From Bacteroidales bacterium (GTDB taxonomy: Bacteria > Bacteroidota > Bacteroidia > Bacteroidales > WCHB1-69): DNA of 55,422 nt. A program made the position numbers and the translations under genes. Each line of letters opens with the position of its first letter. Positions within the stretch are counted from its first letter, which is position 1. The stretch is taken from the NCBI GenBank assembly GCA_017962275.1, contig JAGCVQ010000060.1:1-55422 (forward strand), read 5' to 3'. The notes below the pieces were generated by a model that was not told the origin of the DNA, did not search any database, and was given only the letters and a program-made list of their open reading frames with translations. Below, piece by piece: positions 7,924 through 55,290 of this stretch.

Positions 7924-7957
7924 CCATAAACCTTAAACCCTAAACCCTAAACCATAT
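7924..7957 (+). repeat. Heptamer array, CCCTAAA type, abutting the GlyRS start
   Basis: Five consecutive heptamers (CCATAAA, CCTTAAA, CCCTAAA twice, CCATATA) run directly into the ATG at 7958. The coding strand of the array has no G, so an mRNA leader made from it would be unstructured. Confidence 0.9.
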
Positions 7958-9472
7958 ATGGCAAACAACGAAGACCTTTTCAAACAGATCATAGCCCATG
8001 CGAAAGAGTATGGGTTCATTTTCCCGTCGAGCGAGATTTACGACGGTCTCAGCGCGGTGTATGACTACGGTCAGAACGGCGTGGAGCTGAAGAACAACAT
8101 CAAACAGTACTGGTGGAAGGCCATGGTGCAGTACCACGACAACATCGTGGGCCTTGACAGCGCCATCTTCATGCACCCCACCATCTGGAAGGCATCCGGC
8201 CACGTGGATGCGTTCAACGACCCGCTGATCGACAACAAAGATTCCAAGAAGCGTTATCGCGCCGACGTGCTCATCGAGGATCACATCCAGAAAATCGAGG
8301 ACAAGATCGACAAGGAGATTGAGAAGGCGAAGAAACGTTTCAACAACTTCGACGAGGTGCTGTATCGCCAGACCAACACCCGCGTGGTGCAATATCAGGC
8401 GCAGGTCGATGACATCCGCACGCGTTTTGCCGAGCTGATGAACAACAACGACCTGGTCGGACTGAAGGCGCTGATTGAGGAATTGGGCATCGCTTGTCCG
8501 ATTTCCGGTACGCGTAACTGGACGGATGTCAGACAGTTCAACCTGATGTTCGCCACCAAGTTGGGTTCCGTTGCCGATGGTGCCGACACGATTTACCTCC
8601 GTCCCGAGACGGCGCAGGGCATCTTCGTCAACTACCTGAACGTGCAGAAGACCGGTCGCATGAAACTGCCCTTCGGCATCGCGCAAATCGGCAAGGCTTT
8701 CCGTAACGAAATCGTGGCTCGCCAGTTCATCTTCCGTATGCGCGAGTTCGAGCAGATGGAGATGCAGTTCTTCGTGAAGCCCGGTGAGGAGCTCAAGTGG
8801 TTCGACTACTGGAGACAGACCCGTCTGCAGTGGCACACCGACCTCGGCATCGCCCCGGAAAACTACCGTTTCCACGACCACGAGAAATTGGCGCACTACG
8901 CCAACGCCGCCACCGACATCGAGTTCAAGTTCCCGTTCGGCTTCAAGGAGCTGGAGGGCATCCACTCGCGCACAAACTTCGACCTGTCGCAGCATGAGCA
9001 GTATTCCGGTAAGAAACTGCGCTATTTCGACCCCGAGACGAGCGAAAGCTACGTGCCCTACGTCATCGAGACCTCCATCGGTGTTGACCGTATGTTCCTC
9101 GCGGTCTTCAGCCACGCTTACACCGAGGAGACCTTGGAGGACGGCTCCACGCGTACGGTCCTTCGTATCCCCGCGAAACTCGCGCCCTACAAGGTGGCCG
9201 TGCTGCCGTTGGTGAAGAAAGACGGACTGCCGGAAATCGGCCAGGAGGTCTTCGACATGCTGAAGAAGGACTTCATGGTGCAGTATGAGGACAAGGACGC
9301 CATCGGTCGCCGCTACCGTCGTCAGGACGCCATCGGCACCCCGTTCTGCGTCACCATCGACAACCAGACCAAGGAGGACAACACGGTAACCGTTCGCGAA
9401 CGCGACTCCATGCAGCAATACCGCCTGCCCATCGCCGATCTGACGGTGGAATTGATGAAGAAATTACGTTAA
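7958..9472 (+). CDS. glyQS: Glycyl-tRNA synthetase (single-chain, dimeric type)
   Basis: A 504-residue class II aminoacyl-tRNA synthetase that charges tRNA-Gly. It begins with the family's KQIIAHAKEYGFIFPSSEIYDGL block (split here: AHAKEYGFIFPSSEIY, then DGLSAVYDYG). Class II motif 2 is seen as GKAFRNEI with RQFIFRMREFEQMEMQ, motif 3 near VIETSIGVDRM, and the C-terminal anticodon-binding domain starts at about residue 400 (KLAPYKVAVLPL). It is the eukaryote/archaeal-like alpha2 form, as usual in Bacteroidota. Length fits (about 500-515). The ATG directly follows a CCCTAAA-type heptamer array. A tRNA-Gly gene is at 38.3 kb but is unrelated in position. Confidence 0.96.
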   Translation: MANNEDLFKQIIAHAKEYGFIFPSSEIYDGLSAVYDYGQNGVELKNNIKQYWWKAMVQYHDNIVGLDSAIFMHPTIWKASGHVDAFNDPLIDNKDSKKRYRADVLIEDHIQKIEDKIDKEIEKAKKRFNNFDEVLYRQTNTRVVQYQAQVDDIRTRFAELMNNNDLVGLKALIEELGIACPISGTRNWTDVRQFNLMFATKLGSVADGADTIYLRPETAQGIFVNYLNVQKTGRMKLPFGIAQIGKAFRNEIVARQFIFRMREFEQMEMQFFVKPGEELKWFDYWRQTRLQWHTDLGIAPENYRFHDHEKLAHYANAATDIEFKFPFGFKELEGIHSRTNFDLSQHEQYSGKKLRYFDPETSESYVPYVIETSIGVDRMFLAVFSHAYTEETLEDGSTRTVLRIPAKLAPYKVAVLPLVKKDGLPEIGQEVFDMLKKDFMVQYEDKDAIGRRYRRQDAIGTPFCVTIDNQTKEDNTVTVRERDSMQQYRLPIADLTVELMKKLR

Positions 9473-9477
9473 TCCCC

Positions 9478-9548
9478 GTAGGGCTGTCGCATTGCGGCAG
9501 CCCTACATCGTGATATAATGCAGGGTTGTCGCATTACGGCAACCCTAC
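9478..9548. repeat. Two tandem family C palindromes
   Basis: Hairpin 1 (9478-9506) pairs GTAGGGCTGTCGC with GCGGCAGCCCTAC around an ATT loop, with one T-G mismatch. Hairpin 2 (9521-9548) is a diverged copy, AGGGTTG (9522-9528) against CAACCCT (9540-9546). They lie 6 nt after the GlyRS stop. They may act as terminators, but the copy structure points to a dispersed REP-like repeat. Confidence 0.8.
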
Positions 9549-9586
9549 ATTATTTTAAACACCGTCATTATTATACCGAAAAATTG

Positions 9587-9594
9587 TATCTTTG
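9587..9594 (+). promoter_or_regulatory. -7 box before the GWxTD gene (TATCTTTG)
   Basis: TATCTTTG, 34 nt upstream of the ATG at 9629. Confidence 0.65.
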
Positions 9595-9628
9595 CAGGTT
9601 CAAAATTAAAATGGAAAAATAGTAAGCA

Positions 9629-11107
9629 ATGAGAAAATATACTCTTCTGATAATCATGCTGATGGCGGTGGCGAGCGGCTTTTCGCAAGGTTTGAAGGCT
9701 TTGATCAGCCACAAGGGCTACTGCACCAGCAACCTGCAGCCCTACATCGAGTTCACCTTCGTGGTGGGCGGCAACACCGTGCGCTATGTGCCCGACGGGA
9801 AGGGCGGTTTCGAGGCCGGTGTGGAGATCCGGGTCGAGATGCAGCAGAACGACACCGTGGTGAAGCAGCTGCACTACATTCTCGGCAGCGACCGTTTTGC
9901 CGATTCCACCCGCAGCGGGAAACCCGATTTCGCGGACATCCAGAATGTCCAGCTGCCGCAGGGCGAGTATTTCCTCTATTTCTACATGAAGGATGTCAAC
10001 GCGCTGCCCGACAGCACAGGAAAGGTCGAAGAGCTCGCTTATATCGATAAGATCACCCTCGATTTCCCTGAGGACCGCATCTCCACATCGAAGATTTCGC
10101 TCTACAAGTCCGTTTCGGTGGCCCAAGCCGGCGGTCTTTTCGTGAAATACGGTTTCGACCTGCCGCCGTTGTACTCCAATTTCGTGCCGGAGTCGCAATA
10201 CACGCTGCCGTTCGCGCTGGAGGTCTATAACACCCCGAAAATCCTCGGCAACCGCCCGCTGACGGCCAAGTGCTATGTCGAGCAGGCCGAGTCGCATCTC
10301 GCTGCCAACCCCTCCAACATCATCACGATGACCTATCCGCCGAAGGAAGTAGTGCTGGTTTTCAACGAGTTCAATGTCTTCAACCTCCCTTCCGGCAACT
10401 ATTTTGCCGTGGTGCAGCTGCTGGACGACAGAGACAGCTTGCTGCTGGTTGACAAGGTCTTCTTCCAGAAGAGCAATCCTTCCGTGCAGCTGAATCTTGA
10501 AGAATACAGCCAGTCAAGCATAGTGGGCACCTTCGTGGAATTCGACACCAACCGCAAAGAGCTGATTGACATGGTGAAATGTCTCTATCCCATCAGCAGT
10601 ATCACAGAGCGCGACTTCTATGAAAACCGGCTGAAGACCACCCCGACGGAACAGTTGCAGCAGTTCTTCTACAACTTCTGGCTGCGCCGTAACCCTGCCA
10701 ACCCCGAGGAAGCCTGGAACAATTACAAGAAACGGGTGGACGAGGTGCAGAAGATGTTCGGCAGCAAGCAGATCAAGGGTTACCTTACCGACCGCGGTCG
10801 CGTCTATCTGCAATACGGGCGCCCCGACGAAGTCAAGGACCAGCCTTCTGACCCCGTGACGCTGCCGTATCAGATCTGGCAATACTACTATTTGAACAAC
10901 CAGACCAACGTGAAGTTTGTCTTTTACGACCCCGTGATGACGGGCAAGGACTACGAGCTGTTGCATTCCACCATGTATGGAGAGTTCCAGAACCCGAACT
11001 GGAAGATGCAGTTGGTGCGCAAAATCCAGACCCAGCAGGACCTCTACGACACGGAGCCGGTCAACTATTGGGGCAACGAAATGGACGACTACTGGAAATA
11101 TCACTGA
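9629..11107 (+). CDS. GWxTD domain-containing secreted protein
   Basis: A 492-residue protein with a signal peptide (residues 1-19, ending SGFSQ) and a C-terminal GWxTD-type domain (about residues 330-475). The domain holds FYNFWLRRNPANPEEAWNNY and GYLTDRGRVYLQYGRPDEV, the two best-conserved blocks of that family. The N-terminal 300 residues look beta-rich. GWxTD proteins are exported or periplasmic proteins of Bacteroidota and relatives with no settled function. The downstream sugar-phosphate transferase starts 12 nt later, so the two are probably cotranscribed. A promoter box lies at 9587-9594. Function is not assigned. Confidence 0.85.
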   Translation: MRKYTLLIIMLMAVASGFSQGLKALISHKGYCTSNLQPYIEFTFVVGGNTVRYVPDGKGGFEAGVEIRVEMQQNDTVVKQLHYILGSDRFADSTRSGKPDFADIQNVQLPQGEYFLYFYMKDVNALPDSTGKVEELAYIDKITLDFPEDRISTSKISLYKSVSVAQAGGLFVKYGFDLPPLYSNFVPESQYTLPFALEVYNTPKILGNRPLTAKCYVEQAESHLAANPSNIITMTYPPKEVVLVFNEFNVFNLPSGNYFAVVQLLDDRDSLLLVDKVFFQKSNPSVQLNLEEYSQSSIVGTFVEFDTNRKELIDMVKCLYPISSITERDFYENRLKTTPTEQLQQFFYNFWLRRNPANPEEAWNNYKKRVDEVQKMFGSKQIKGYLTDRGRVYLQYGRPDEVKDQPSDPVTLPYQIWQYYYLNNQTNVKFVFYDPVMTGKDYELLHSTMYGEFQNPNWKMQLVRKIQTQQDLYDTEPVNYWGNEMDDYWKYH

Positions 11108-11119
11108 TGCACCTGCGGT

Positions 11120-11737: not shown

Positions 11738-11761
11738 AATTTTGCATAGTTACGAATTCCC

Positions 11762-11804
11762 TAACCGATAACCCATAACCCTTAAACCATAAACCTAAAC
11801 CAAT
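11762..11804 (+). repeat. Heptamer array, TAACCCA/TAAACCA type, abutting the HerA-like gene
   Basis: Units TAACCGA, TAACCCA, TAACCCT, TAAACCA, TAAACC (6 nt) and TAAACCA run to 2 nt before the ATG at 11805. It has the same C-rich orientation relative to the gene as the array at 7924-7957. Confidence 0.85.
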
Positions 11805-13394: not shown

Positions 13395-13400
13395 TGTTTT

Positions 13401-13470
13401 TTGGTTTACATGGTTACACGGTTAGTCACTAACCACTAACCATGTAACCCTTTAACCCTTAATCCATCAA
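13401..13470. repeat. Folded GGTTA/TAACC array before the asparaginase gene
   Basis: The first half is G-rich (GGTTTACAT, GGTTACAC, GGTTAG) and the second half C-rich (CTAACCA repeated, then TAACCCT, TTAACCC). ACATGGTTA (13408-13416) is the exact complement of TAACCATGT (13437-13445), so the array can form a hairpin. The C-rich half runs to the ATG at 13471. Confidence 0.75.
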
Positions 13471-17662: not shown

Positions 17663-17715
17663 CGTTTTTTAGGGTTACACGGTTACAGGGTTACAGGGTT
17701 AGGGAGGTTGTAGAA

Positions 17716-20463: not shown

Positions 20464-20495
20464 ATGTAGAGACGTAAAATTATGCGTCTCTACAT
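20464..20495. repeat. Family D palindrome, long copy
   Basis: ATGTAGAGACG (20464-20474) pairs with CGTCTCTACAT (20485-20495) around a 10-nt AT-rich loop. It lies 24 nt after the transglutaminase-like gene, where it could also end transcription. Confidence 0.75.
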
Positions 20496-20552: not shown

Positions 20553-20633
20553 GCGGATGTGGCGTAATGGTAGCCGCGCCAGACTTAGGATCTGGTGGCG
20601 AAAGCCGTGGGGGTTCGAGTCCCCCCATCCGCA
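20553..20633 (+). tRNA. tRNA-Leu (anticodon UAG)
   Basis: The acceptor stem GCGGATG pairs perfectly with CATCCGC (20626-20632), with discriminator A. The anticodon arm is CCAGA-CTTAGGA-TCTGG, giving anticodon TAG, which reads CUN leucine codons. A class II variable arm (TGGCGAAAGCCG) and a TTCGAGT T-loop are present. CCA is not encoded. Confidence 0.95.
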
Positions 20634-20643
20634 CTTTCCAATG

Positions 20644-20671
20644 CAGAATTCAGAATGAAGAATGAAGAATT
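20644..20671 (+). repeat. Heptamer array, CAGAATT/AAGAATG type
   Basis: Four exact-length units: CAGAATT, CAGAATG, AAGAATG, AAGAATT. It starts 11 nt after tRNA-Leu. The rest of this 250-nt spacer to the FucP gene shows only the promoter at 20846-20853. Confidence 0.9.
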
Positions 20672-22218: not shown

Positions 22219-22257
22219 GTCTTTATCAATCAGTGAATGCGCTTTGTGCAGAAACCA

Positions 22258-22285
22258 ACAGCTAATAGCCAAAAGCTAACAGCTA
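22258..22285. repeat. Heptamer array, ACAGCTA type, between convergent genes
   Basis: Units ACAGCTA, ATAGCCA, AAAGCTA, ACAGCTA. The last unit contains the stop codon of the minus-strand acyltransferase (22283-22285). Confidence 0.85.
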
Positions 22286-23146
22286 AAATTTCAATTTCCA
22301 GCGTCTGTGGCTCCAAATCCAGTATTCGGGTTTGCGGCGGATGGTCTGTTCCAGTAATTCGGTGTATTTCTGCGTGATGGCATAGGGTTCCTCCTCTTGC
22401 GGATGGTCTGTAATGAGGTGGACATCCACGCGGTACTTCCCTATTCTCTCCTTTATCACCTCGTAATAGAGCACCGGGATGTTGTATTTGCGTGCGAAAT
22501 ACTCGGGACCGTATATCACGCCGGTGGTTTGGTTGAGAAACTGCGTGACGTAGCATTTTTTCGGGTTGCTGGGCGATTGGTCGGCGAGCATCATGTAGGC
22601 CGCGGGGATATGGTTTTCCTCGTAATGCGCGAAAACCTCGCGGGCGGTGTCGGCGAAGCAGACCTCCGTGCCGTTGCGGGTGCGCGCACGGTTCACCCAC
22701 TTCTCGAAGACTTTGTCGCTGTTGGCCTTCCCCACCCCGATACCGTGCTGCGGGAACATCTCGTCCAAGGCCACAATCATCCACTCCCAGTTGTTGTAGT
22801 GGCTCGACATCAGGATCACACTCCTACCCTCTTTGAAGAAATTTTCTGGCAGCGATTTGTCGTCGCAGTGGTAACGGTAGCGCAGGGCGAAACGCGGAAT
22901 CAGCAACATCTTGATCATCTCAATAGCAATCTGTGACAAATGCCAGTAGTAGCGGTTGCGTATCCGTCTCCGTTCTTGAACCGTCAGTTCAGGAAACGAC
23001 CGCAACAGATTGTCGTCCACCACTTTCCGTCTGTATCGAACCACGTGATTCACCACCCCATACACCACGGGCAACAACAGATATAGCACAGCTAACGGCA
23101 GCGCTGCGAGGGGGTAACAGATGAAGAAGATGAAGAAGAAGGTCAT
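22283..23146 (-). CDS. Lipid A acyltransferase (LpxL/HtrB-like lysophospholipid acyltransferase)
   Basis: A 287-residue inner-membrane acyltransferase. The HX4E catalytic motif is seen as His116-YNNW-Glu121 in ILMSSHYNNWEW, and residues 1-31 form an N-terminal membrane anchor. YMMLADQSPSNPKKCYV around 185-205 matches the second conserved block (ADQ). LpxL-type enzymes add secondary acyl chains to Kdo-lipid A. The gene follows GmhB in the same direction after 93 nt that hold a heptamer array, so both serve lipopolysaccharide. The stop codon lies in a heptamer array. Length is slightly short against E. coli LpxL (about 306), as usual in this phylum. Confidence 0.88.
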   Translation of the reverse strand: MTFFFIFFICYPLAALPLAVLYLLLPVVYGVVNHVVRYRRKVVDDNLLRSFPELTVQERRRIRNRYYWHLSQIAIEMIKMLLIPRFALRYRYHCDDKSLPENFFKEGRSVILMSSHYNNWEWMIVALDEMFPQHGIGVGKANSDKVFEKWVNRARTRNGTEVCFADTAREVFAHYEENHIPAAYMMLADQSPSNPKKCYVTQFLNQTTGVIYGPEYFARKYNIPVLYYEVIKERIGKYRVDVHLITDHPQEEEPYAITQKYTELLEQTIRRKPEYWIWSHRRWKLKF

Positions 23147-23149: not shown

Positions 23150-23184
23150 AATTAAGAATTAAGAATGGAGAATGAAGAATGAAA
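23150..23184. repeat. Heptamer array, AATTAAG/AATGAAG type
   Basis: Five units: AATTAAG twice, AATGGAG, AATGAAG, AATGAAA. It starts 4 nt upstream of the acyltransferase start codon. Confidence 0.9.
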
Positions 23185-23798: not shown

Positions 23799-23900
23799 TC
23801 CCCACACTGCGGCTATCTCCTTGTGTCCACCCCACACTGCGGCTGTCGCCTTGTGTGGGGTTATTAAAATGTTGTCCCTCCGGGACTGTTTAAGGAATAA
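23799..23900 (+). repeat. Family A multi-hairpin repeat, copy 2 plus degenerate copy
   Basis: A degenerate unit (23800-23829) is followed by a full one: CCCCACAC (23830-23837) paired with GTGTGGGG (23853-23860), then GTCCC-TCC-GGGAC (23874-23886), then TGTTTAAGGAAT. The second stem differs from that at 31971-31983 by paired changes, so it is conserved as a structure. It lies between gmhB and the antiporter gene, antisense to both. Confidence 0.8.
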
Positions 23901-23934
23901 TTCTTCATTATACATTCTTCATTATGCATTGTCG
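23900..23934. repeat. Heptamer array, ATTCTTC type, over the antiporter 3' end
   Basis: Units ATTCTTC, ATTATAC, ATTCTTC, ATTATGC, ATTGTCG. The antiporter stop codon (23922-23924) is inside the array. Confidence 0.85.
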
Positions 23935-25649: not shown

Positions 25650-25664
25650 TTATATTTGTATATT

Positions 25665-25692
25665 AGTGAATAGTGAACAGTGATCAGTAATC
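25665..25692. repeat. Heptamer array, AGTGAAC type
   Basis: Units AGTGAAT, AGTGAAC, AGTGATC, AGTAATC, in the 99-nt spacer between the antiporter start and the 5'-nucleotidase end. Confidence 0.85.
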
Positions 25693-25729
25693 AGGTAAAA
25701 GATAGCACGTTGTATACTACGAAAGAAAT

Positions 25730-25771
25730 ATTCTTCATTATGCATTCTTCATTCTTCATTCTGGATTGTCA
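25730..25771. repeat. Heptamer array, ATTCTTC type, encoding the 5'-nucleotidase tail
   Basis: Units ATTCTTC, ATTATGC, ATTCTTC twice, ATTCTGG, ATTGTCA. On the minus strand the array supplies the final codons Q-N-E-E and the TGA stop (25749-25751). Confidence 0.85.
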
Positions 25772-26558: not shown

Positions 26559-26560
26559 TC

Positions 26561-26602
26561 TTAACTCTTAATTCTAAACTCTAAACCCTAAACTCTAAAC
26601 TA
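26561..26602. repeat. Heptamer array, TAAACTC/TAAACCC type
   Basis: Units TTAACTC, TTAATTC, TAAACTC, TAAACCC, TAAACTC, TAAACTA fill the 46-nt spacer between two minus-strand genes. Relative to these genes the array is G-rich, the orientation otherwise seen at gene 3' ends. Confidence 0.85.
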
Positions 26603-28260: not shown

Positions 28261-28268
28261 ATTTTAAG

Positions 28269-28296
28269 GTTTATAGTTTATGGGTTAGGGTTTATG
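28269..28296 (-). repeat. Heptamer array, CATAAAC/CCTAACC type, upstream of the ligase
   Basis: Forward units GTTTATA, GTTTATG, GGTTAGG, GTTTATG. Read with the ligase gene they are G-free, CCTAACC-like, and end 8 nt before its ATG. Confidence 0.85.
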
Positions 28297-31902: not shown

Positions 31903-31996
31903 CTCACTTTCTATATGCCCCACACTGCGGCTTTCGCCTTGTGTGGGGTTAATTGCACTCCGTGCGTTTTGCCTCTTCGAGGCTGCTTAAGGAATT
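31903..31996 (+). repeat. Family A multi-hairpin repeat, copy 3 (most complete)
   Basis: Three stems in order: CCCCACAC (31918-31925) with GTGTGGGG (31941-31948); GCAC-TCC-GTGC (31955-31965); GCCTC-TTC-GAGGC (31971-31983); then TGCTTAAGGAAT. It lies between ftsH and rsfS, antisense to both. Confidence 0.8.
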
Positions 31997-32022: not shown

Positions 32023-32057
32023 CTTAACCTTGAACTTTGAACCTTGAACTTAGAACT
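32023..32057. repeat. Heptamer array, TTGAACC/TTGAACT type, over the rsfS end
   Basis: Units CTTAACC, TTGAACT, TTGAACC, TTGAACT, TAGAACT. The rsfS stop codon (32050-32052) lies inside. Confidence 0.85.
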
Positions 32058-32430
32058 TCTGAATCTCAGCATCGCCCCAGAGGGATTCGAGCTGGTAGTG
32101 CTCGCGGGCTTCGGGGAGGAAGATGTGGACCAGAATGTTGAAGTAGTCGAGCAGCACCCACTCCTTGTTTTCGAGCCCCTCGACATGCAGCGGCTTGACA
32201 CCGGCAACGCGCTGGGTCTGCTCCTGCACGAAGTCGCAGAGCGTCTCCACATGGGGTTTGGAATTGCCTGTGCAGACGATGAAGTAGTCGAAATAGACGT
32301 GGTTTATCTTCTTCAGGTTGACGCAATGGATATCCACCCCTTGCTTCTCGATCAGGGCTTGTATAATCAACTCTTCCAGGTTCCCTTCGTAGGGAACACC
32401 CTCAAATTTCACTTTTCTCTTTACTGTCAT
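32050..32430 (-). CDS. rsfS: Ribosomal silencing factor RsfS
   Basis: A 126-residue protein of the Iojap/RsfS family, which binds ribosomal protein L14 and keeps the subunits apart when nutrients are scarce. Conserved blocks are DYFIVCTGNSKPHVETLCDFV and GLENKEWVLLDYFNILVHIF (quoted in parts: FIVCTGNSKPHV, EWVLLDYFNILVHIF). The ATG at 32428-32430 is used, because the open frame upstream begins with TTG. A TATTTTTG box at 32453-32460 precedes it. It heads the minus-strand run through ftsH, the LUD gene and cdsA, the usual order in Bacteroidota. Confidence 0.93.
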   Translation of the reverse strand: MTVKRKVKFEGVPYEGNLEELIIQALIEKQGVDIHCVNLKKINHVYFDYFIVCTGNSKPHVETLCDFVQEQTQRVAGVKPLHVEGLENKEWVLLDYFNILVHIFLPEAREHYQLESLWGDAEIQKF

Positions 32431-37103: not shown

Positions 37104-37107
37104 TTAG

Positions 37108-37135
37108 TTAGCAGTTAGTAGTTAGTAGTTAAGAC
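37108..37135. repeat. Heptamer array, TTAGTAG type
   Basis: Units TTAGCAG, TTAGTAG twice, TTAAGAC, in the 39-nt spacer between the NifU and YchF genes. Each unit holds an in-register TAG or TAA. Confidence 0.85.
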
Positions 37136-37142
37136 AAACAAT

Positions 37143-38240
37143 ATGGGTTTGAAATGCGGCATAGTAGGATTGACGAACTCGGGTAAGACGACGATGTTCA
37201 ACTGCATCTCCAACACGAAGGCGGAGGTGACAGATTTCGCGTACAGCACCAACAAGTCGAACATTGGCGTATGTGCAGTGCCTGACGAGCGTCTGGCCCA
37301 CATCAACACCTTCATCCATGCCGACAAGTTGGTCTATGCCAACTTGGATCTCGTCGATATTCCCGGTTTGGCCAAGGGTGCCAGCACCGGCGCGGGCATC
37401 GGCAACAGCTTCCTCGCGGACGTGCGTCTGTGCGACGCGCTCATCCACGTGCTGCGCTGCTTCGACAACCCTGCCCTACCCCATGAGGAAGGTTCTGTGG
37501 ATCCCGTCCGCGACATCGAGATTGTGGATTTCGAGTTACAGTGCAAGGACCTGGAGCAGATCGAGCGCAAAATCTCAAAGGTGGAGAAAGCCGCCAAGGT
37601 GGGCGACAAAACCGCCAAGCACGACTACGAAATTCTGAAGAAATACAAGGAACATCTCGAAGGTTTCCAGAATGTGCGCACCTTGGAAGTCACCGCTGAT
37701 GAAAAAGCCGTGGTGGCCGACATGATGCTGCTCACCGAGAAGCCCGTGATGTTCGTATGCAACGTGAACGACGACGACGCGGCCACCGGGAACGCTTATT
37801 CCGAGGCCGTGAAGAAATATGTGGAAGAGAACGGCGGGGAAATGTTGGTTATCGCCGCCAAGATCGAATCCGAAATTGCCGAATTGGAAAGCGAGGAGGA
37901 CCGCAAAGCCTTCTTGGAGGATGTTGGTCTGACCGAGCCGGGCGTGAACAAGGTGATCCGTGCGGCCTACAAGATGCTGGATCTCATCTCCTTCTTCACC
38001 GTTGGCGGCAAGGAGAACAGAGCCTGGACCATCAAGCGGGGCATGTTGGCACCGCAGGCGGCGGGCGTGATCCACAGCGACCTGGAACGCGGCTTCATCC
38101 GCGCCGAGGTCATCAAATACAACGATCTGGTGCAATACGGATCGGAACTCAAGTGCAAGGAGGCCGGCAAGTTGGCGGTCGAAGGCAAGAACTACGAAGT
38201 GCAGGACGGCGATATCCTTCACATAAGGTTTAATGTTTAG
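37143..38240 (+). CDS. ychF: Redox-regulated ATPase YchF (Obg-like)
   Basis: A 365-residue P-loop protein of the Obg family that prefers ATP. GIVGLTNSGKTTMFNCISN is the G1 region, DIPGLAKGASTGAGIGN the G3 region, followed by a coiled-coil insert (about 130-190) and a C-terminal TGS domain ending in HIRFNV. YchF associates with ribosomes and is linked to oxidative stress control. The last codons F-N-V-stop are typical of the family, yet they also form the first units of a GTTTAAT/GTTTAGG heptamer array that continues past the stop. The array may have grown out of the gene end. Confidence 0.95.
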   Translation: MGLKCGIVGLTNSGKTTMFNCISNTKAEVTDFAYSTNKSNIGVCAVPDERLAHINTFIHADKLVYANLDLVDIPGLAKGASTGAGIGNSFLADVRLCDALIHVLRCFDNPALPHEEGSVDPVRDIEIVDFELQCKDLEQIERKISKVEKAAKVGDKTAKHDYEILKKYKEHLEGFQNVRTLEVTADEKAVVADMMLLTEKPVMFVCNVNDDDAATGNAYSEAVKKYVEENGGEMLVIAAKIESEIAELESEEDRKAFLEDVGLTEPGVNKVIRAAYKMLDLISFFTVGGKENRAWTIKRGMLAPQAAGVIHSDLERGFIRAEVIKYNDLVQYGSELKCKEAGKLAVEGKNYEVQDGDILHIRFNV

Positions 38241-38300
38241 GGTTTAATGTTTAAGGTTTAAAGAATAACCCCTAAACCTTAAACTCTAAACCCTAAACCA
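38228..38300. repeat. Opposed heptamer arrays between ychF and tRNA-Gly
   Basis: G-rich units GTTTAAT, GTTTAGG, GTTTAAT, GTTTAAG, GTTTAAA (38228-38262) are followed by C-rich units CCCTAAA, CCTTAAA, CTCTAAA, CCCTAAA (38270-38297). The halves are largely complementary and could fold together. The ychF stop lies in the first half; tRNA-Gly begins 6 nt after the second. Confidence 0.9.
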
Positions 38301-38305
38301 AAAAT

Positions 38306-38378
38306 GCGGTAGTAGCTCAGTTGGCAGAGCGGCGGCTTCCCAAGCCGCAGGTCGCGGGTTCGAACCCCGTCTACCGCT
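38306..38378 (+). tRNA. tRNA-Gly (anticodon CCC)
   Basis: The acceptor stem GCGGTAG pairs with CTACCGC (38371-38377), with discriminator T. The anticodon arm GCGGC-TTCCCAA-GCCGC gives anticodon CCC, reading GGG. The T arm GCGGG-TTCGAAC-CCCGT and an AGCTCAGTTGGCAGAG D arm are normal. CCA is not encoded. Confidence 0.95.
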
Positions 38379-38395
38379 CAAAAATCTAACAATTT

Positions 38396-43897: not shown

Positions 43898-44995
43898 ATG
43901 AACTTCTGGCGACATAAGAAAAATGAAGAACGTGCGGTCTCCCTTTCCGCGCTCACGTGGCAGCGTTTCAAGAAAGAGCGCCAGGCTATCGTGTCGCTGG
44001 CCTACATCGCGCTGGTGGTCTTCGTCGCCATTCTCGGCTATCTCATCACCCCCGATTCCACCCCGTTCTGCAACCACCAACAGCTCGAAATCGCCTTGCA
44101 GAAGCCCGGTTTCACCGTGAAGATGCTTGAAATCAAACCCGAGCAGGAAGTCCCGCACGTCAACATCCTTCACAAGATGTTGTTCGGACAACCCGCTGAA
44201 TATAAGACTGTTCCGATTGAATCACTCCAAGACAACGGCGATTCCGTGACGGTGAAGCTTTTCCAACAGGAGTATTACGAATCCTACGCCAAAAGTGACC
44301 TTTCGCAGCGGATGGTCAGGAAGCAGCGGTTTTTGCTCGGCACCGACCGCTACGGTCGCGACGTGCTCAGCCAGCTGATGATCGGCGCTCGCGTGAGTCT
44401 CTCCGTCGGCTTCCTCTCCATCTTCATCGCCCTCTTCATCGGCACGCTCGTGGGCGCGACGGCCGGCTACTACCGCGGCAAGGTCGATGACGTGCTCACC
44501 TTCTTCATCAATGTGGTGTGGTCGATCCCTACCCTACTGCTTGTCATCGCCATCAGTTTCGCCCTCGGCAAGGGTTTCTGGAAGATCTTCATCGCCATCG
44601 GCCTGACCATGTGGGTGGATATCGCCCGTGTGGTGCGCGGACAGTTCCTGAGTCTGCGCGAGCAGGACTTTGTAGAATCCGCTAAAGCTTTAGGTTACAG
44701 CAATTTGCGAATCATATTTAAACACATACTTCCGAACATCACCGGCACGCTCATCGTGATTGCCGCCTCCAATTTCTCGTCTGCCATTCTGATGGAAGCG
44801 GGTTTGAGCTTCCTCGGTTTGGGAGTGCAGCCCCCCACCCCATCCTGGGGCATGATGATGAAGGAGAACTACGCCTGTATCGTACTCAACAATGCTTACT
44901 TGGCTATCATCCCCGGTCTGGCCATCATGCTGTTGGTACTCTCGTTTATGCTGATTGGCAACGCGTTGCGAGACGCGATGGACGTGAGGAGTTAG
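43898..44995 (+). CDS. ABC transporter permease, DppC/OppC type
   Basis: A 365-residue inner-membrane permease of peptide-type ABC importers. It has an N-terminal helix at about 33-53, a long periplasmic insert of about 100 residues, and a C-terminal transport domain with five helices. The domain includes FLLGTDRYGRDVLSQLMIGAR, quoted in parts (LLGTDRYGRDVL, SQLMIGAR), and the EAA-type loop EQDFVESAKALGYSN. The end QPPTPSWGMMM is typical of DppC/OppC. The periplasmic insert is longer than in most DppC proteins. No DppB, ATPase or binding protein is adjacent, so its partners are elsewhere. The promoter box places the start at 43898. The TAG stop lies in a GGAGTTA heptamer array. Confidence 0.88.
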   Translation: MNFWRHKKNEERAVSLSALTWQRFKKERQAIVSLAYIALVVFVAILGYLITPDSTPFCNHQQLEIALQKPGFTVKMLEIKPEQEVPHVNILHKMLFGQPAEYKTVPIESLQDNGDSVTVKLFQQEYYESYAKSDLSQRMVRKQRFLLGTDRYGRDVLSQLMIGARVSLSVGFLSIFIALFIGTLVGATAGYYRGKVDDVLTFFINVVWSIPTLLLVIAISFALGKGFWKIFIAIGLTMWVDIARVVRGQFLSLREQDFVESAKALGYSNLRIIFKHILPNITGTLIVIAASNFSSAILMEAGLSFLGLGVQPPTPSWGMMMKENYACIVLNNAYLAIIPGLAIMLLVLSFMLIGNALRDAMDVRS

Positions 44996-45015
44996 GAGTT
45001 AGGAGTTAGCAGTTG
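44988..45015. repeat. Heptamer array, GGAGTTA type, carrying two opposed stop codons
   Basis: Units GGAGTTA three times and GCAGTTG. It contains the permease stop (TAG, 44993-44995) on the plus strand and the stop of the 86-residue protein (TAA, 45006-45008) on the minus strand. Confidence 0.9.
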
Positions 45016-46731: not shown

Positions 46732-46830
46732 TTAACCTCATAACCCTTTAACCTCCTAACCTTTTAACCTCTTAAACCATAAACCTTAAACCCTAAACCA
46801 TTTTGCCTTTTCCCTATTGCCTGTTGCCTG
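46732..46830 (+). repeat. Composite array: TAACCT/CCCTAAA words then TTGCCTG heptamers
   Basis: The first part (46732-46800) mixes 7- and 8-nt units such as TTAACCT, CCATAAA, CCTTAAA, CCCTAAA. The second (46803-46830) is TTGCCTT, TTCCCTA, TTGCCTG twice. The second array ends 8 nt before the TATCTTTG box at 46839-46846. Confidence 0.85.
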
Positions 46831-48402: not shown

Positions 48403-48428
48403 TAGGGGCGAATCATTATTCGCCCCTA
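48403..48428. repeat. Family B palindrome, second copy
   Basis: TAGGGGCGAAT (48403-48413) pairs with ATTCGCCCCTA (48418-48428) around CATT. It is a variant of the perfect palindrome at 1720-1749. Confidence 0.85.
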
Positions 48429-48431: not shown

Positions 48432-48510
48432 TTACACCTTCTAACCTCTAACCATGTAACCGTGTAACCCTTTAACCAATAACCCCATAAACCATAAACC
48501 TTAAACCAAA
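48432..48510 (+). repeat. C-rich array (CTAACCA, then CCATAAA) abutting the flippase start
   Basis: 7- and 8-nt units (CTAACCT, CTAACCA, TGTAACC, CTTTAACC) pass into regular heptamers CCATAAA twice and CCTTAAA (48485-48505). They reach the ATG at 48511 after CCAAA. Confidence 0.85.
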
Positions 48511-50007: not shown

Positions 50008-50013
50008 TGTTTA

Positions 50014-50044
50014 ATTCAGAATTCAGAATTAAGAATTAAAAATT
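50014..50044. repeat. Heptamer array, ATTCAGA/ATTAAGA type
   Basis: Units ATTCAGA twice, ATTAAGA, ATTAAAA, beginning 6 nt after the flippase stop. Confidence 0.85.
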
Positions 50045-50543: not shown

Positions 50544-50700
50544 CACAAATGTTGATTATCTTCAATACACAAACGAATATTTTTATTAACAGGATTATGA
50601 ACAGCCATATCCTGTTCTATTTCCATAGTATGCTTTTTATAGGAAATGTTACACCCCGAACGAAAATTTTCTTTCTGTTACCTCTTGCCTCAAAAAAATG

Positions 50701-50708
50701 TATCTTTG
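50701..50708 (+). promoter_or_regulatory. -7 box of the LRR protein gene (TATCTTTG)
   Basis: It lies 24 nt before the ATG at 50732 and excludes the longer frame from 50549. Confidence 0.7.
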
Positions 50709-50731
50709 CGGCAATATCGAAACTACCAAAT

Positions 50732-52633
50732 ATGATGAAAAGAAATCTACTGCTTGCGGCCATGTTCGCAATGGCCACGTTCGCTGGGCATAACGTGAAA
50801 GCCCAGAATCCCGTGTTCAGCTATGACTATCAGGGCAAAACACTTTATTACGTTATCGACAGCAACTTGCATGCACAGGTTGTATCGCCAGACTATCCCG
50901 ACCTGCATTTTACTGTTGACAGCTCGGATTGCAATCCTTGGTACGGCCACACCCAGCCCCAAGGAGCCATTGTGGTACCCGATTCGGTGATGTTCAACGG
51001 TGAATATTATCCTGTCACTGCTCTTGCAGACCGTGTTTTTTATTATTGTAGCAACATCCAGTCATTGGTACTCCCGCAGAGCCTGACAATCATTGGAAAA
51101 CTCTCAATATGCGAATGTTTGGGGCTCCAATCGGTGACTTTTGAGGGAAATCAGACTCCTGGCGCAGGATCCAGAATCAAAGTGATTGATCGTCATGCAT
51201 TTCGGGGATGCATCGCTCTCCAGTCGGTAATCCTCCCGGATAGCCTGACCACCCTTGCGTATGCAGCTTTCTATCACTGCACCAGCCTCCAATCGGTAAC
51301 ATTTCCCGATGCTCTGACCACCATTGAAAATTTCGCTTTTGGGGAATGCGACGCGCTTCAATCAGCGACACTCCCAAACAGCTTGACAACTCTTGGCGAT
51401 TGTGTGTTTATCCGATGCCCGGGACTCCAGTCGGTGACACTTCCGCCAAGCCTGACCAACACTGGCACTTACGCGTTCGATGAATGCACAGGACTCCAGT
51501 CGGTATCATTGTCTGAGGGATTGATGACCATTGGGGAAAAAGCATTCCGGAGATGCTCGAGTCTCCAGTCGATAGACATCCCTGCCAGCGTGAATACGAT
51601 CGGTTTGAGTGCATTTCAAGAATGTGGATCACTTCTCACCGTCACCCTGCACGAAGGCATTGATACGATAGGTGTAAATGCTTTCTGGAGTTGCAGCAGT
51701 CTGACCACCATCAACTATCCCTCCACGCTGAAGGTGATAGGCGATAACGCTTTTGAGTTCGACAACATGCTCGCCACTCCCGTCGTACTCCCTGAAGGTT
51801 TTATCACCCTTGGAAATGTCGCTTTCGGCGATTGCTCCAGCATCCCATTTGCTGACCTTCCTGGCAGTCTGAGTTCAATCGGGGACTGGACCTTCTACCA
51901 GTGCATAAGTCTCACCAGTGTCACCTTGCATGAGGGCACAGAGAGAATTGGAACCCGCGCATTTCTGGGATGCACAAACCTGACAACCATCAACTACCCC
52001 TCCACGTTGAATGAGATTGATGAAGTAGCGTTCGGACTCTGCACTGCACTTGACGAGACTCTTATTCTTCCCAATGGGCTCACCAATTTGGGACTTGCGG
52101 CCTACGCATTTTGCAGCAACATCGTTTCCGCAAGTCTGCCTGGGACGATAGGAGAAATCCAGTCGGAAATGTTCTACGGCTGCACCTCGCTTTCCAAAGT
52201 CACGATTGGGGAGGGTATCACGAACATCGGCATGGGTACTTTCAATGTTTGCCCCAATATCGATACCCTCTTTGTGAACTGCGCCGTGCCGCCCACGGTT
52301 GAATCGCCCATCGACAGTACTTTCTTCACGTTTAATTCCACCGTGGTTGTTCCCTGCGGCTCCGAAGAGGTTTACCGTCAACATGCGGTTTGGGGACTCT
52401 TTTCCGACATTGTGGAAGACTGCGGCGTGGGCATCCCTGATGTGGATATTCCCGACGTCACTATCCGTGTCACAAACAGCCGCATAGAGGTTGAGGGTGC
52501 CGAGGGCGAAAACGTGCGCGTGTTCGACATCACAGGCCGCATCGTACGCAACGAAGCATTGTCCGCAGGCGTCTATCTGGTGCAGATCGGCAACCGTCCG
52601 GCAGAGAAAGTAGTGGTACACCCGAATATGTAA
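50732..52633 (+). CDS. BspA-like leucine-rich-repeat surface protein with T9SS sorting domain
   Basis: A 633-residue exported protein. Signal peptide at about 1-24 (NLLLAAMFAMATFAG, ending VKAQ). From about residue 100 to 540 come some 17-18 LRR_5/BspA repeats of 23-24 residues, each of the form AF-x-x-C-x-x-L-x-SVTLP-x-SLTTIG. The C-terminus (about 570-633) is a short T9SS type A domain: ITGRIVRNEALSAGVYLVQIG and a basic end (quoted in part: VRVFDITGRIV, SAGVYLVQIG). BspA proteins bind host or bacterial surfaces. Near-identical repeats make internal recombination likely. A paralogue starts at 55313 and a strong terminator follows. Confidence 0.9.
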   Translation: MMKRNLLLAAMFAMATFAGHNVKAQNPVFSYDYQGKTLYYVIDSNLHAQVVSPDYPDLHFTVDSSDCNPWYGHTQPQGAIVVPDSVMFNGEYYPVTALADRVFYYCSNIQSLVLPQSLTIIGKLSICECLGLQSVTFEGNQTPGAGSRIKVIDRHAFRGCIALQSVILPDSLTTLAYAAFYHCTSLQSVTFPDALTTIENFAFGECDALQSATLPNSLTTLGDCVFIRCPGLQSVTLPPSLTNTGTYAFDECTGLQSVSLSEGLMTIGEKAFRRCSSLQSIDIPASVNTIGLSAFQECGSLLTVTLHEGIDTIGVNAFWSCSSLTTINYPSTLKVIGDNAFEFDNMLATPVVLPEGFITLGNVAFGDCSSIPFADLPGSLSSIGDWTFYQCISLTSVTLHEGTERIGTRAFLGCTNLTTINYPSTLNEIDEVAFGLCTALDETLILPNGLTNLGLAAYAFCSNIVSASLPGTIGEIQSEMFYGCTSLSKVTIGEGITNIGMGTFNVCPNIDTLFVNCAVPPTVESPIDSTFFTFNSTVVVPCGSEEVYRQHAVWGLFSDIVEDCGVGIPDVDIPDVTIRVTNSRIEVEGAEGENVRVFDITGRIVRNEALSAGVYLVQIGNRPAEKVVVHPNM

Positions 52634-52652
52634 CGTAAATCCTTTTCGTTTC

Positions 52653-52696: not shown

Positions 52697-52786
52697 TACG
52701 CTAACCTTCTCCTTTTTTTGCGAAAATCAAACCATTAACACTTAATCATAATTGATTATCAATGATTTATATTTCCTAAAAAATGT

Positions 52787-52794
52787 TAATTTTG
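52787..52794 (+). promoter_or_regulatory. -7 box of the GT4 pair (TAATTTTG)
   Basis: TAnnTTTG box 27 nt before the ATG at 52821. Confidence 0.6.
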
Positions 52795-52820
52795 CCGCCG
52801 TTGTTTTTAGATAGCGATAT

Positions 52821-54017
52821 ATGAAAATTTTGTTTGTAGTTAACAACATCTACTGTCTAGGAAATGGTCTTGATGCATCGGCAAGACGCACTGTACAGAC
52901 ACTGCGTGATGCAGGACAGGACGTGCGGGTACTCTCCTGCGAGAATTTGGAAGAGCCTGACGGGCCGCAACCCGAATACAGACAAAAGGAATTCCATTTC
53001 CCCATATTTCAGCCACTTATCAAGGCGCAAGGATATTCGTTTTCCAAATGGGACGGTCAAAATATTGAAGCTGCCGTCCGATGGGCGGATGTGGTCCATA
53101 TTGAGGAGCCTTACTTCATCGAACACGTAGCGATGAATTGGGCGAAAAAACTTGGCAAGCCCCTCACGGCGACATATCATCTGCATCCCGAAAACGTTTT
53201 CTACTCACTCGGCATGGGCAGTTGGTCGCTTCCGAATAACACCTTGTTGCGCTATTGGGCGCGCGTTTTCTTGGACAATTGTGTCTATGTGCAATGTCCG
53301 ACAGAAAACGTCCGTGAGCGACTGAGTCGTTTTCACGTCAAAGCCAATTGTATAACGATTTCTAACGGATTGGTACCAGACAAATGCATTCGTCCGCAAA
53401 CGCCGCCAACGGATTATTTTGACGAGAATCGGCCGCTCGAAGTGATCTATATCGGTCGTCTTTCGGGCGAAAAAGACCAGCCCACGCTGCTGAAAGCCAT
53501 GCGCTATAGCAAATTCGCGAGCAGAATCCGTCTTCGTTTCGCCGGACAAGGACCCAATCAGAAAAAGTATCAGCGACTGGCAGAGAAACTTTACGAAGAG
53601 GGAATCCTGAAATACAAACCCTCCTTCGAGTTCCTCAATCGCGACCAATTGCGTGAATTGGCTGCCCACGCGGATTTGGCTGTGCATTGCGCCATCATCG
53701 AAGTGGAAGGTCTTAGCATCATGGAAGCCATGCAGCAGGCTGTGGTACCTGTGATTGCCGTCGGAAGCTGCTCCGGCACTTCGCAGTTCGCGCTGGACGA
53801 TCGCTGCAAATTTCCCGCGAAAGACGCCAAAGCACTCGCCGCCCGTATCGACTACTGGCTCGAACACCCGCAGGAGCGTTGGGAGATGGGCTTCAAATAT
53901 GCCGAATCGATGGAAAAGTATGACATCGCCAACAGCGTGAAACAACTCATCGATATGTTTGGCAAAGCAATTGAAAAAAAACACAACCAAATAATAAACC
54001 AAAATACCGTACAATGA
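52821..54017 (+). CDS. Glycosyltransferase family 4, first of tandem pair
   Basis: A 398-residue GT-B fold enzyme. The N-terminal half starts MKILFVVNNIYCLGNGLD (acceptor domain). The C-terminal half has the donor-site pattern VIYIGRLSGEKDQPTLLKAM (about 210-230) and EVEGLSIMEAMQQAVVPVIA (about 293-312), with the spaced Glu residues of GT4 enzymes. No membrane segment is seen, so it acts at the cytosolic face on lipid-linked or protein acceptors. Its stop overlaps the next start by 4 nt (ATGA). It is clearly homologous along its whole length to the next gene, a tandem duplication. Sugar and acceptor are unknown. Confidence 0.88.
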   Translation: MKILFVVNNIYCLGNGLDASARRTVQTLRDAGQDVRVLSCENLEEPDGPQPEYRQKEFHFPIFQPLIKAQGYSFSKWDGQNIEAAVRWADVVHIEEPYFIEHVAMNWAKKLGKPLTATYHLHPENVFYSLGMGSWSLPNNTLLRYWARVFLDNCVYVQCPTENVRERLSRFHVKANCITISNGLVPDKCIRPQTPPTDYFDENRPLEVIYIGRLSGEKDQPTLLKAMRYSKFASRIRLRFAGQGPNQKKYQRLAEKLYEEGILKYKPSFEFLNRDQLRELAAHADLAVHCAIIEVEGLSIMEAMQQAVVPVIAVGSCSGTSQFALDDRCKFPAKDAKALAARIDYWLEHPQERWEMGFKYAESMEKYDIANSVKQLIDMFGKAIEKKHNQIINQNTVQ

Positions 54018-55189
54018 AAATTCTGTTTGTAGTAAACAACTTTTTCTGTCAGGGCAATGGTCTTGACGAGTCAGCAAGAAGGACAGTAAAGGCACTGAGT
54101 GACGCAGGACAGGATGTGCGTGTGCTCTCAGGCAAAAACTTGGAAGATCCCAATGGCCCGCATGCGGATTATGAGATGGAGAATTTCGATTTCCCTCTTG
54201 TGCAACCCATGCTTTCCTCCTTTGGCTACCATTTTGCCAAGTGGAAGGGGCCGCAAATTGAGGCCGCGGTTCGTTGGGCGGATGTTATCCACATGGAAGA
54301 GACCTTCTTTCTCCACCACGCCGCCATGAATTGGGCGAAAAAGCTGGGCAAACCCATGGTGGGAACCTATCATGTCCATCCGGAGAACATCATTTTCAAC
54401 ACCCTGGGCTTCCGGGGCGGTTTTCTGACGTGCCAAATCCTTTATCGTTACTGGTGCCGCGTTTTCTATGACAATTACAAATATCTGCAATGCCCTACGG
54501 AGAATGTGCGCGAGCGTTTGATTCGCCATCGGGTCAAAGCGAACTGTTTCACCCTCTCCAACGGCGTGATTCCCGACAAATGCATCCGTCCGCTCACACC
54601 GCCGGAGAACTACTTTGATGAGAATCGTCCGCTCGACCTGATCTATATCGGTCGCACGGCCATTGAGAAGGACCAACCGACGCTCTACAAGGCGATCCGT
54701 CTCAGCAAGTACGCGAAACGTATCCGACTGCACATTGCCGGCCGCGGTCCGAAGTTGGAACCCTACACCCGCATGGCCGAGAAACTCTATGAAGACGGTG
54801 TGGTGGGTTATAAACCGACTGTAGGTTTCTACAACCGCGACGAATTGCGAGAACTGGCTGCCAAAGCCGACTTGGCTGTCCATTGCGCCTTTGTGGAGGT
54901 GGAAGGAATGAGCATTACGGAGGCCATGCAGCAGGCCGTCGTGCCTGTGATTGCCACCGCACGTTACTCCGGCACATCCGCATACGCCTTGGATGATCGC
55001 AGCAAATTCCCCACAAAAAACGCGAAAGCGCTTGCCGAACGCATCGACTATTGGTTCGATCACCCTCAGGAACGGTGGGAGATGGGCTTCAAATACGCCG
55101 ATTCGATGAACGATTACGACATCAACACCGTGGTGGCGAAACGGCTCATCGAAACCTATGAGGCAGCGATACGGGAAATGAAGAATTAA
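54014..55189 (+). CDS. Glycosyltransferase family 4, second of tandem pair
   Basis: A 391-residue paralogue of the preceding gene. Matching blocks are MKILFVVNNFFCQGNGLDESARRT, quoted in part (MKILFVVNNFFCQGNGLD), LIYIGRTAIEKDQPTLYKA and EVEGMSITEAMQQAVVPVIA. The two share most positions, including ENYFDENRPL just before the donor domain, yet differ in the acceptor half (about 60-130), so they may add different residues or use different acceptors in sequence. The stop codon (55187-55189) comes from an AAGAATT heptamer array, which also encodes the final M-K-N. The gene is translationally coupled to the first. Confidence 0.88.
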   Translation: MKILFVVNNFFCQGNGLDESARRTVKALSDAGQDVRVLSGKNLEDPNGPHADYEMENFDFPLVQPMLSSFGYHFAKWKGPQIEAAVRWADVIHMEETFFLHHAAMNWAKKLGKPMVGTYHVHPENIIFNTLGFRGGFLTCQILYRYWCRVFYDNYKYLQCPTENVRERLIRHRVKANCFTLSNGVIPDKCIRPLTPPENYFDENRPLDLIYIGRTAIEKDQPTLYKAIRLSKYAKRIRLHIAGRGPKLEPYTRMAEKLYEDGVVGYKPTVGFYNRDELRELAAKADLAVHCAFVEVEGMSITEAMQQAVVPVIATARYSGTSAYALDDRSKFPTKNAKALAERIDYWFDHPQERWEMGFKYADSMNDYDINTVVAKRLIETYEAAIREMKN

Positions 55190-55215
55190 GAATTAAGAAT
55201 GAAGAATTAAGAATA
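55181..55215. repeat. Heptamer array, AAGAATT type, over the GT4 3' end
   Basis: Units AAGAATT twice, AAGAATG, AAGAATT, AAGAATA. It supplies the stop codon of the second GT4 gene. Confidence 0.9.
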
Positions 55216-55227
55216 TTGATTCCAAAG

Positions 55228-55254
55228 CGGCAGGCCAAACGGTCTGCCGTTTTT
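55228..55254 (+). terminator. Terminator after the GT4 pair
   Basis: CGGCAGGCC (55228-55236) pairs with GGTCTGCCG (55241-55249) around AAAC, followed by five T. The core is shared with the terminator at 52653-52696. Confidence 0.8.
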
Positions 55255-55290
55255 GCCTATTGCCTTTTGCCTATAAAAAATGTATCTTTG
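55253..55290 (+). promoter_or_regulatory. TTGCCTA array and TATCTTTG box before the second LRR gene
   Basis: Heptamers TTGCCTA, TTGCCTT, TTGCCTA (55253-55273) precede the -7 box TATCTTTG (55283-55290), 23 nt before the ATG at 55313. The DUF4301 gene has the same order of TTGCCTG heptamers then TATCTTTG. Confidence 0.7.

Follow-up and report, generated by a model that had tools for sequence, protein, structure and literature searches.

What writes short tandem arrays of one fixed period and of many different words into the spacers between bacterial genes? The question is raised by contig JAGCVQ010000060.1 of a Bacteroidales bacterium (assembly GCA_017962275.1, lineage WCHB1-69), of which the whole stretch of 55,422 nucleotides (nt) is here called the window. 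An original prediction, made from the letters alone, held that most spacers of the window are built from 7-nt tandem arrays. The observation of 7-nt spacer arrays is confirmed, and the arrays further follow a strand rule: next to a gene they mostly read G-rich away from that gene (outward-G, the opposite being outward-C), and period and polarity persist while the words turn over between related species.

Samples

The window lies on contig C12 of its genome (G000), an assembly of 2,772,719 bases in 105 contigs that is 94.31% complete. The main sample from this genome comprises the window and stretches L029-L048 (302,616 base pairs, with 49,685 spacer and 252,813 coding bases) and is slightly biased against arrays, because the contigs beyond the window were chosen without the 15-mer TAACCCTTTAACCCT; stretches L255-L274 also come from contigs without it, and most of L009-L028 were picked for contigs that hold it. 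Genes were called with a purpose-written script, so that start positions are rough. Comparisons used one genome per species, and stretches of 5 to 40 kilobases each were taken from 16 of 17 congeners (G008 was left out). Orthologous loci enter more than once in the turnover comparison and in the polarity and pair counts from later-fetched stretches. In the species collection at least 117 stretches carry the word TTGCCTN in four copies; 80 loci were sorted by record title into 47 cyanobacterial, 10 Bacteroidota and 23 other loci. A plasmid search with one window gene gave no match.

A period of seven in the spacers

Runs of at least ten matches at a lag of 7 nt number 75 in the spacers of the main sample and 0.0 in five shuffles. 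The multiples of seven are raised as well (59 runs at lag 14, 31 at lag 21 and 25 at lag 28); lag 8 has 8 runs, and lags 5-6 have none. In coding DNA of the same sample there is a single lag-7 run, and one shuffle likewise gave one; seven of 104 arrays lie mostly within called genes. A lag-7 peak in spacers, with many word families, is what had been anticipated. The spacers of the window alone contain 17 lag-7 arrays, compared with a mean of 0.07 and a maximum of 1 in 100 dinucleotide shuffles. At other lags they contain five 8-nt arrays (a few had been noticed), one array at lag 9 and none at lags 5, 6, 10 or 11. Tandem Repeats Finder places period 7 and 8 arrays across most of the window, at the places quoted and at more. 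All six stretches first quoted are 7-nt periodic by their lag-7 matches: 7924-7957 (23/27), 20644-20671 (18/21), 22258-22285 (16/21), 25665-25692 (18/21), 37108-37135 (17/21) and 44988-45015 (19/21). That "most" spacers are so built is barely correct, since 18 of the 32 window spacers of at least 25 nt carry a 7- or 8-nt array.

The vocabulary is large: the 247 arrays of the genus use 78 different consensus words, none of them dominant. The original prediction called the words unrelated, which is right as to their variety and too strong as to kinship: the array at 26559-26601 passes between words, and within 118 long arrays the similarity of units falls from 5.86/7 at distance 1 to 4.47/7 at distance 10, a decay that supports drift in multiples of 7 nt after origin. 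Identical units in these long arrays are slightly commoner at even distances, that is at 14-nt steps. Across 497 arrays, C makes up 8% of the G strand and G 29%, a skew of 0.61 where control windows have 0.24. Judged by their letters, the common words AGTTAGC, AATGAAG and GATAATG, which lack GGG, would differ from quadruplex-type G-run repeats. One period with many words across this genome and its congeners favours a common 7-nt-stepping process over the spread of a single element, and to that extent the process first proposed is upheld; the strand polarity and the inverted pairs described below had been missed.

By a strict test lag-7 runs occur in 13 of the 16 sampled congeners, with none in G014, G015 and G016; looser scoring finds arrays at single loci of G014 and G016. 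Among 11 genomes of other families, likewise sampled at 5 to 40 kilobases each, G018, G026 and G028 have lag-7 runs and eight have none, and G026 also has at least one run at every other lag from 4 to 12. The 47 cyanobacterial loci, which were chosen by TTGCCTN, hold 208 lag-7 runs and 22 at lag 8. The TTGCCTN word itself is present in records from many phyla. A vocabulary common to different phyla was considered and set aside: overlap is weak with the cyanobacterial loci, where, with the TTGCCT family excluded, genus words recur in 16/122 arrays (reversed control 12), and absent with the mixed rest (1/26, control 3); the reverse comparison finds cyanobacterial words in 35 of 234 genus arrays (control 14). 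Overlap with the ten Bacteroidota loci is better (6/14 and 0 for the reversed control). AGTTAGN arrays occur in 30 of 296 same-phylum genomes, the present one included, and the reversed word in 18. The AGTTAGN arrays listed for same-phylum genomes such as G315, G256 and G211 are long and uniform, whereas those of the present genome are short and mixed.

Strand polarity at gene edges

The rule was first seen in tandem spacers, where all 36 stop-side arrays and 17 of 19 start-side arrays are outward-G. Edge counts below are outward-G:outward-C arrays within 15 nt of a gene, unless another distance is named. The first stretches of this genome give 94:13 at stops and 35:4 at starts. Stretches fetched after the rule had been seen give 34:6 and 7:1 (41 of 48; binomial p 6e-7), and those from congeners 50:3 and 18:0 (68 of 71; p 5e-17, with loci partly non-independent). 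By period, 7-nt arrays of this genome stand at 114:8 at stops and 31:5 at starts and its 8-nt arrays at 11:0 at starts; in congeners the figures are 67:9 and 32:0 for 7-nt arrays and 8:2 for 8-nt arrays at stops. The rule is also found in the window with L029-L048 and L255-L274, whose contigs beyond the window lack TAACCCTTTAACCCT (7-nt arrays, stop 68:5, start 23:4). Sorted by eye, 11 of 19 listed exceptions at stops of this genome are 8-nt GGTTACAC/TAACCNTG-like arrays.

At stops the arrays directly adjoin the stop codon (within 3 nt, 120:15), and those 16-80 nt further on are mostly reversed. Start-side arrays are spread over 0-80 nt, with counts of 24:3, 18:2, 19:5 and 19:7 as distance grows, as if leader and promoter sequence were kept there. 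In convergent spacers of this genome G- and C-rich arrays stand at 10:2 on the left and 0:11 on the right. Arrays adjacent to tRNA genes are outward-G in 13 of 13 cases, ten of which are one orthologous site; ten flank a 5' end and one a 3' end within 15 nt, and two lie further off. The cyanobacterial loci follow the rule within 60 nt of genes (stop 56:7 with 4 ties, start 23:3 with 1 tie), and their arrays more than 60 nt away stand at 48:42. The TTGCCTN loci of Bacteroidota give 7:1 at stops and 3:0 at starts, the 23 other loci 8:4 and 5:2.

Selection on stop codons does not explain the polarity, because words with three-frame stops on the C strand only are still outward-G at stops (12:4 in the genus, 4:0 in cyanobacterial loci), as are words without stops on either strand (25:4 and 15:1); nor do the tRNA ends support it. 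A general skew of gene edges is absent from array-free spacers of this genome (stop 60 G:81 C, start 97:93). At start edges the genus arrays with start codons on the G strand only, the C strand only, neither strand or both strands stand at 30:2, 4:0, 2:1 and 4:2, and the cyanobacterial ones at 2:2, 2:0, 6:0 and 2:1.

The arrays of the window are the following.

1665-1690, plus strand: 8-nt array, G-rich on the plus strand, spacer interior
7916-7956, minus strand: CCCTAAA/TAAACC array up to 1 nt ahead of the start of a class II tRNA synthetase gene, G-rich strand outward
11762-11795, minus strand: TAACCC/TAAACC array 9 nt ahead of a gene start
13437-13470, minus strand: 8-nt TAACCCTT array abutting a gene start, faced by a G-rich 8-nt repeat at 13406-13424
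17673-17701, plus strand: 8-nt GGTTACAG array, spacer interior
20640-20670, plus strand: AATGAAG array 5 nt past the 3' end of tRNA-Leu (20553-20634), outward G
22257-22286, minus strand: AACAGCT array between convergent genes, outward G relative to the right-hand gene
23150-23183, plus strand: AATTAAG/AATGAAG array 3 nt from a gene start, outward G
23900-23930, minus strand: ATTCTTC/ATTATAC (14-nt) array spanning the last codons of a minus-strand gene
25664-25694, plus strand: AGTGAAC array, spacer interior
25730-25762, minus strand: ATTCTTC array spanning the stop of a minus-strand gene
26559-26601, minus strand: array going from TCTTAAT to CTAAACC/CCTAAAC units, 3 nt from a stop
28263-28294, plus strand: TTTAAGG array 2 nt from a gene start, outward G
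32026-32058, minus strand: AACCTTG array spanning a stop
37106-37131, plus strand: AGTTAGC/T array 2 nt past the stop of a NifU-domain gene
38224-38268, plus strand: GGTTTAA G-rich arm over the last codons of a ychF-like gene
38266-38304, minus strand: TTAAACC C-rich arm 1 nt before tRNA-Gly (38306-38379), partly complementary to the GGTTTAA arm
44984-45014, plus strand: AGGAGTT array over a gene end
46733-46775, minus strand: 8-nt TAACC array
46773-46799, minus strand: TAAACCA array
46801-46830, minus strand: TTGCCT array
48449-48493, minus strand: 8-nt TAACC array
48485-48507, minus strand: CCATAAA array 3 nt before a gene start
50013-50044, plus strand: AATTCAG/AATTAAG array 5 nt past a stop
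55177-55214, plus strand: AATGAAG/AATTAAG array running over the final codons and the stop of a gene that ends at 55189
55253-55272, minus strand: TTGCCTA array

Turnover of words at orthologous spacers

Of 388 orthologous spacer pairs, 142 were dropped with one spacer shorter than 22 nt and 246 were compared. Neither spacer has an array in 94 pairs and only one species has an array in 63; where both have one (89 pairs), 33 share a 10-mer and 56 share none. The period and the strand polarity thus persist while the words turn over. The gene neighbours of 37104-37142 (NifU domain and ychF-like) and of 38241-38305 (ychF-like and tRNA-Gly) are kept together in congeners, and the sequence between them changes. 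At the former spacer the AGTTAGC word is also found in G003 and G005, CAATAACC in several congeners, GGCTATT and then TAAACTC units in G010 and G013, and other cassettes in G002 and G006. The pairs ahead of tRNA-Gly are GGTTTAA/TTAAACC, AATTATG/CATAATT, GGCTATT/AATAGCC or the 8-nt AGGTTAAN/NTTAACCT, and two of seven congener spacers there have no matching pair. Sorted by eye, the arrays beside one tRNA at ten loci in nine genomes fall into about eight word families; every one is outward-G and lies 1-7 nt from the tRNA. Presence and absence are illustrated by L270 near 3833, a short spacer whose counterpart in G013 (L279) carries one word in a G-rich and in a C-rich array. A single 7-nt step separates G006 from G013 at L088 near 14499, where the G013 counterpart has one extra unit.

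In a few places (L097 near 14014, L262 near 1602, and L292) arrays or cassettes lie between a stop codon and a terminator-like hairpin with a tRNA, both of which are intact.

Paired arrays and palindromes

Adjacent arrays, read along one strand, stand G-rich then C-rich in 75 cases, C then C in 21, G then G in 14 and C then G in one, with 3 that include a tie. For 7-nt arrays only, the numbers of G-C, G-G, C-C and C-G pairs are 30, 8, 6 and 0 in this genome, 12, 5, 5 and 0 in congeners, and 31, 19, 13 and 4 in cyanobacterial loci. At least 9 complementary nt link the two arms in 27 of 88 G-then-C pairs, compared with a mean of 6.1 and a maximum of 12 in 100 permutations, and the other 61 have unlike words. 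The matching words suggest that the two sides in many cases, but not in all, share a source or fold back on one another. Pairs with the 8-nt period in both arms do not exceed their null maximum (5 pairs, null mean 2.0, maximum 6). RNA hairpins are not a general property of these spacers either, the folding z-scores being -1.80 with arrays (n=56) and -1.76 without (n=79).

The spacers also hold palindromic cassettes. The palindrome at window 20466-20493 (GTAGAGACG...CGTCTCTAC) belongs to a family with 101 places in this genome within 2 mismatches of a consensus-like form, and its members replace heptamer arrays at some orthologous spacers. A second palindrome type, GGGCGAAT..ATTCGCCC, occurs at 1721-1748 and 48406-48425 in spacers that also carry 8-nt arrays. 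Hairpin modules of the form CCCCACAC..GTGTGGGG are found at 29-58, 23830-23860 and 31918-31948 and often belong to a longer composite present in several congeners. A possible partner of the palindromes is a Y1 transposase (PF01797), which has matches in G000 at C2:13540-13884, C72:33018-33359 and C101:11515-11739 (26.7 bits, weak).

Origin of the arrays

Arrays of many words that are oriented by gene edges hint at one copying or repair process. It is tentatively proposed that the arrays are filler that turns over in neutral spacer DNA and that arises by extension of 3' ends in 7-nt steps, followed by joining. As part of the same tentative proposal, they would not be one element and mostly not conserved signals. 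A gap or break would open between two genes, and the 3' DNA ends on both sides would be extended in 7-nt, sometimes 8-nt, steps by a C-poor strand that contains G. Joining of the two extended sides would leave a G-rich array followed by a C-rich array on one strand. Since the 3' ends belong to the top strand on the left and to the bottom strand on the right, C-poor extension of both would yield the G-first, C-last order and outward-G polarity whatever the direction of the genes; a process linked to transcription should produce a single polarity along each transcript, unlike what is seen in tandem spacers. Both sides may sometimes receive one word, giving a near-palindrome, and more often different words. 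Units could later be duplicated or lost in multiples of 7 and mutate, so that words drift, and the whole filler might be replaced again, within limits set by selection that preserves genes, tRNAs, promoters and terminators. The N-additions made by terminal transferase in V(D)J joints have a comparable geometry. A stronger form of the proposal, a long shot at present, is that at least two bacterial lineages possess a telomere-like DNA-end activity, with neither an RVT_1-type reverse transcriptase (RT) nor Ku, that puts C-poor 7- or 8-nt repeats on both 3' ends of a gap in non-essential DNA and fuses them; spacers would thereby be rewritten repeatedly, the words changing and the polarity staying fixed.

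Several results weigh against end extension. The polarity was at first taken as symmetric throughout the spacer, a form that was dropped because of arrays that break it: interior arrays of tandem spacers are sense-C:G 50:18 in this genome, 43:20 in congeners and 40:39 in cyanobacterial loci, arrays 16-80 nt past a stop are mostly outward-C (8:27 here, 8:24 in congeners), some of these being second members of pairs, and 8-nt arrays of this genome hardly obey at stops (14:11). Cyanobacterial arrays within 3 nt of a start stand at 3:3, and array-free cyanobacterial stop edges lean to G as well (46:21), so a general edge skew is partly present there. The case against start codons as the source of the polarity is a weak one, because the informative word classes are small; the tRNA ends help, but ten of the 13 are one site. 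In smaller samples arm matching does not exceed the permutation maximum (5/22, maximum 5; 6/26, maximum 6). Ku was found in none of 30 genomes searched, so that the known end-joining route is missing; the 7-nt-step polymerase is postulated, and the break is inferred.

The fading of the rule inside spacers makes another account about as likely as end extension, namely replication slippage with a polymerase-determined 7-nt step, combined with selection that removes harmful orientations near genes, which would act at gene edges. Slippage had been named in the original prediction, and it or local tandem duplication contributes: it suits the sharp period, the decay of unit similarity, the excess of identical units at 14-nt steps and the one-unit difference between G006 and G013. 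By itself, however, it leaves unexplained the replacement of words at one site, the words common to inverted arms, and the polarity beside tRNAs and of stop-free words. Loss of MutS is not its cause, because mutS1 was found in all 30 genomes searched, and loss of SbcD has no support, this genome having an SbcD match above cut-off. That the arrays are functional RNA or DNA signals, such as hairpins or protein-binding arrays that act at operon joints as terminators, insulators or translation controls, is unlikely; the complementary pairs, the contact with stops and starts, and a proposed role of TAACTGA repeats in translational regulation (PMC4679880) speak for it, but congeners have different words at the same gene pair or, in 63 of 246 pairs, an array in one species only, and folding is alike with and without arrays.

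Insertion of array pairs as units by a mobile hairpin cassette, for example through Y1 (RAYT-like) transposases, could account for the interchange of arrays and palindromic cassettes at orthologous spacers and for one palindrome at 101 places, and PF01797 matches three places in this genome and is found in 28 of 30 genomes. However, no end sequence in common was seen, 61 of 88 pairs have unlike words, and relatives without lag-7 runs in their sampled stretches have Y1 matches about as often, which leaves this explanation with little probability. Outward-G polarity resembles telomere ends, which brings to mind a telomerase-like RT that writes repeats from an RNA template, and DRT10 does produce tandem-repeat complementary DNA (cDNA) from a short RNA template (PMC12632851). 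Such an origin is very improbable here: PF00078 has no match in this genome, which is 94% complete, and matches five of 17 congeners but not the other 12, although divergent RTs could escape the model, and the many words would require many templates.

Relation to known repeats

Heptanucleotide repeats have been noted in bacteria for decades. The short tandemly repeated repetitive (STRR) sequences of filamentous cyanobacteria are intergenic heptanucleotide repeats at many loci, and the present arrays are like them in unit length, intergenic place and number of loci; the cyanobacterial loci fetched here share the lag of 7 and the polarity. The overlap of the two vocabularies is weak. The original prediction supposed such arrays undescribed in Bacteroidales, an order to which Paludibacter belongs. 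This is doubtful, as TAACTGA direct repeats are reported from Beggiatoaceae, Cyanobacteria and five Bacteroidetes including Paludibacter, alongside several heptamers in Microcystis (PMC4679880). Those repeats are likewise 7-nt direct repeats and mostly intergenic, with 7-nt insertions or deletions between close Cyanothece strains and other heptamers mixed in in some genomes, yet the main genome of that report has one dominant word and rarely repeated related words (PMC4679880), whereas the present genus has dozens and none dominant. TAACTGA, in its canonical form AACTGAT, is not among the 45 commonest of the 78 genus words and occurs in 5 cyanobacterial arrays.

Intergenic heptamer repeats are therefore of a known kind, and the polarity is already in print for two G-rich words, GGGAATC in Xanthomonas and GGGGA(C/T)T in Nostoc, which lie on the coding strand after a stop and on the non-coding strand before a start, mostly within 50 base pairs (PMC4692102). 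Their length and sequence vary between relatives, and the strand rule near genes is shared. They consist, however, of one G-quadruplex word per genus with a preference for four units and are mostly kept between the same genes in two species (PMC4692102); here the rule spans many words, common ones among them without GGG, and words are often replaced. The published single-word studies deal with one or a few fixed words per genome, compared with 78 in this genus. Slippage with a polymerase-determined 7-nt step is the proposal cited in PMC4692102, and the papers on heptamer repeats cited here put mechanisms forward as proposals, not as demonstrated. DRT10 repeats also consist of short tandem-repeat DNA, but they are protein-primed cDNA with a 9-nt unit in the best studied case, made by an RT with a non-coding RNA (PMC12632851, preprint), and this genome has no RVT_1 match.

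The rule over many words, its constancy under word replacement, the G-then-C order, the polarity at tRNA edges and the independence from stop-codon content are taken as additions; they were not found in the open-licence papers searched, and subscription papers may have them. A polarity common to many words, seen at gene starts, at stops and beside tRNAs both in this genus and in cyanobacterial loci, is a clear mark that can be sought where strain pairs or mutation-accumulation lines are sequenced, and it turns the question of why the step is seven into a testable one. It also advises caution, in that spacer sequence of such genomes is not necessarily regulatory.

Among the genes of the window, 50549-52633 encodes a BspA-type leucine-rich-repeat protein of 694 amino acids.

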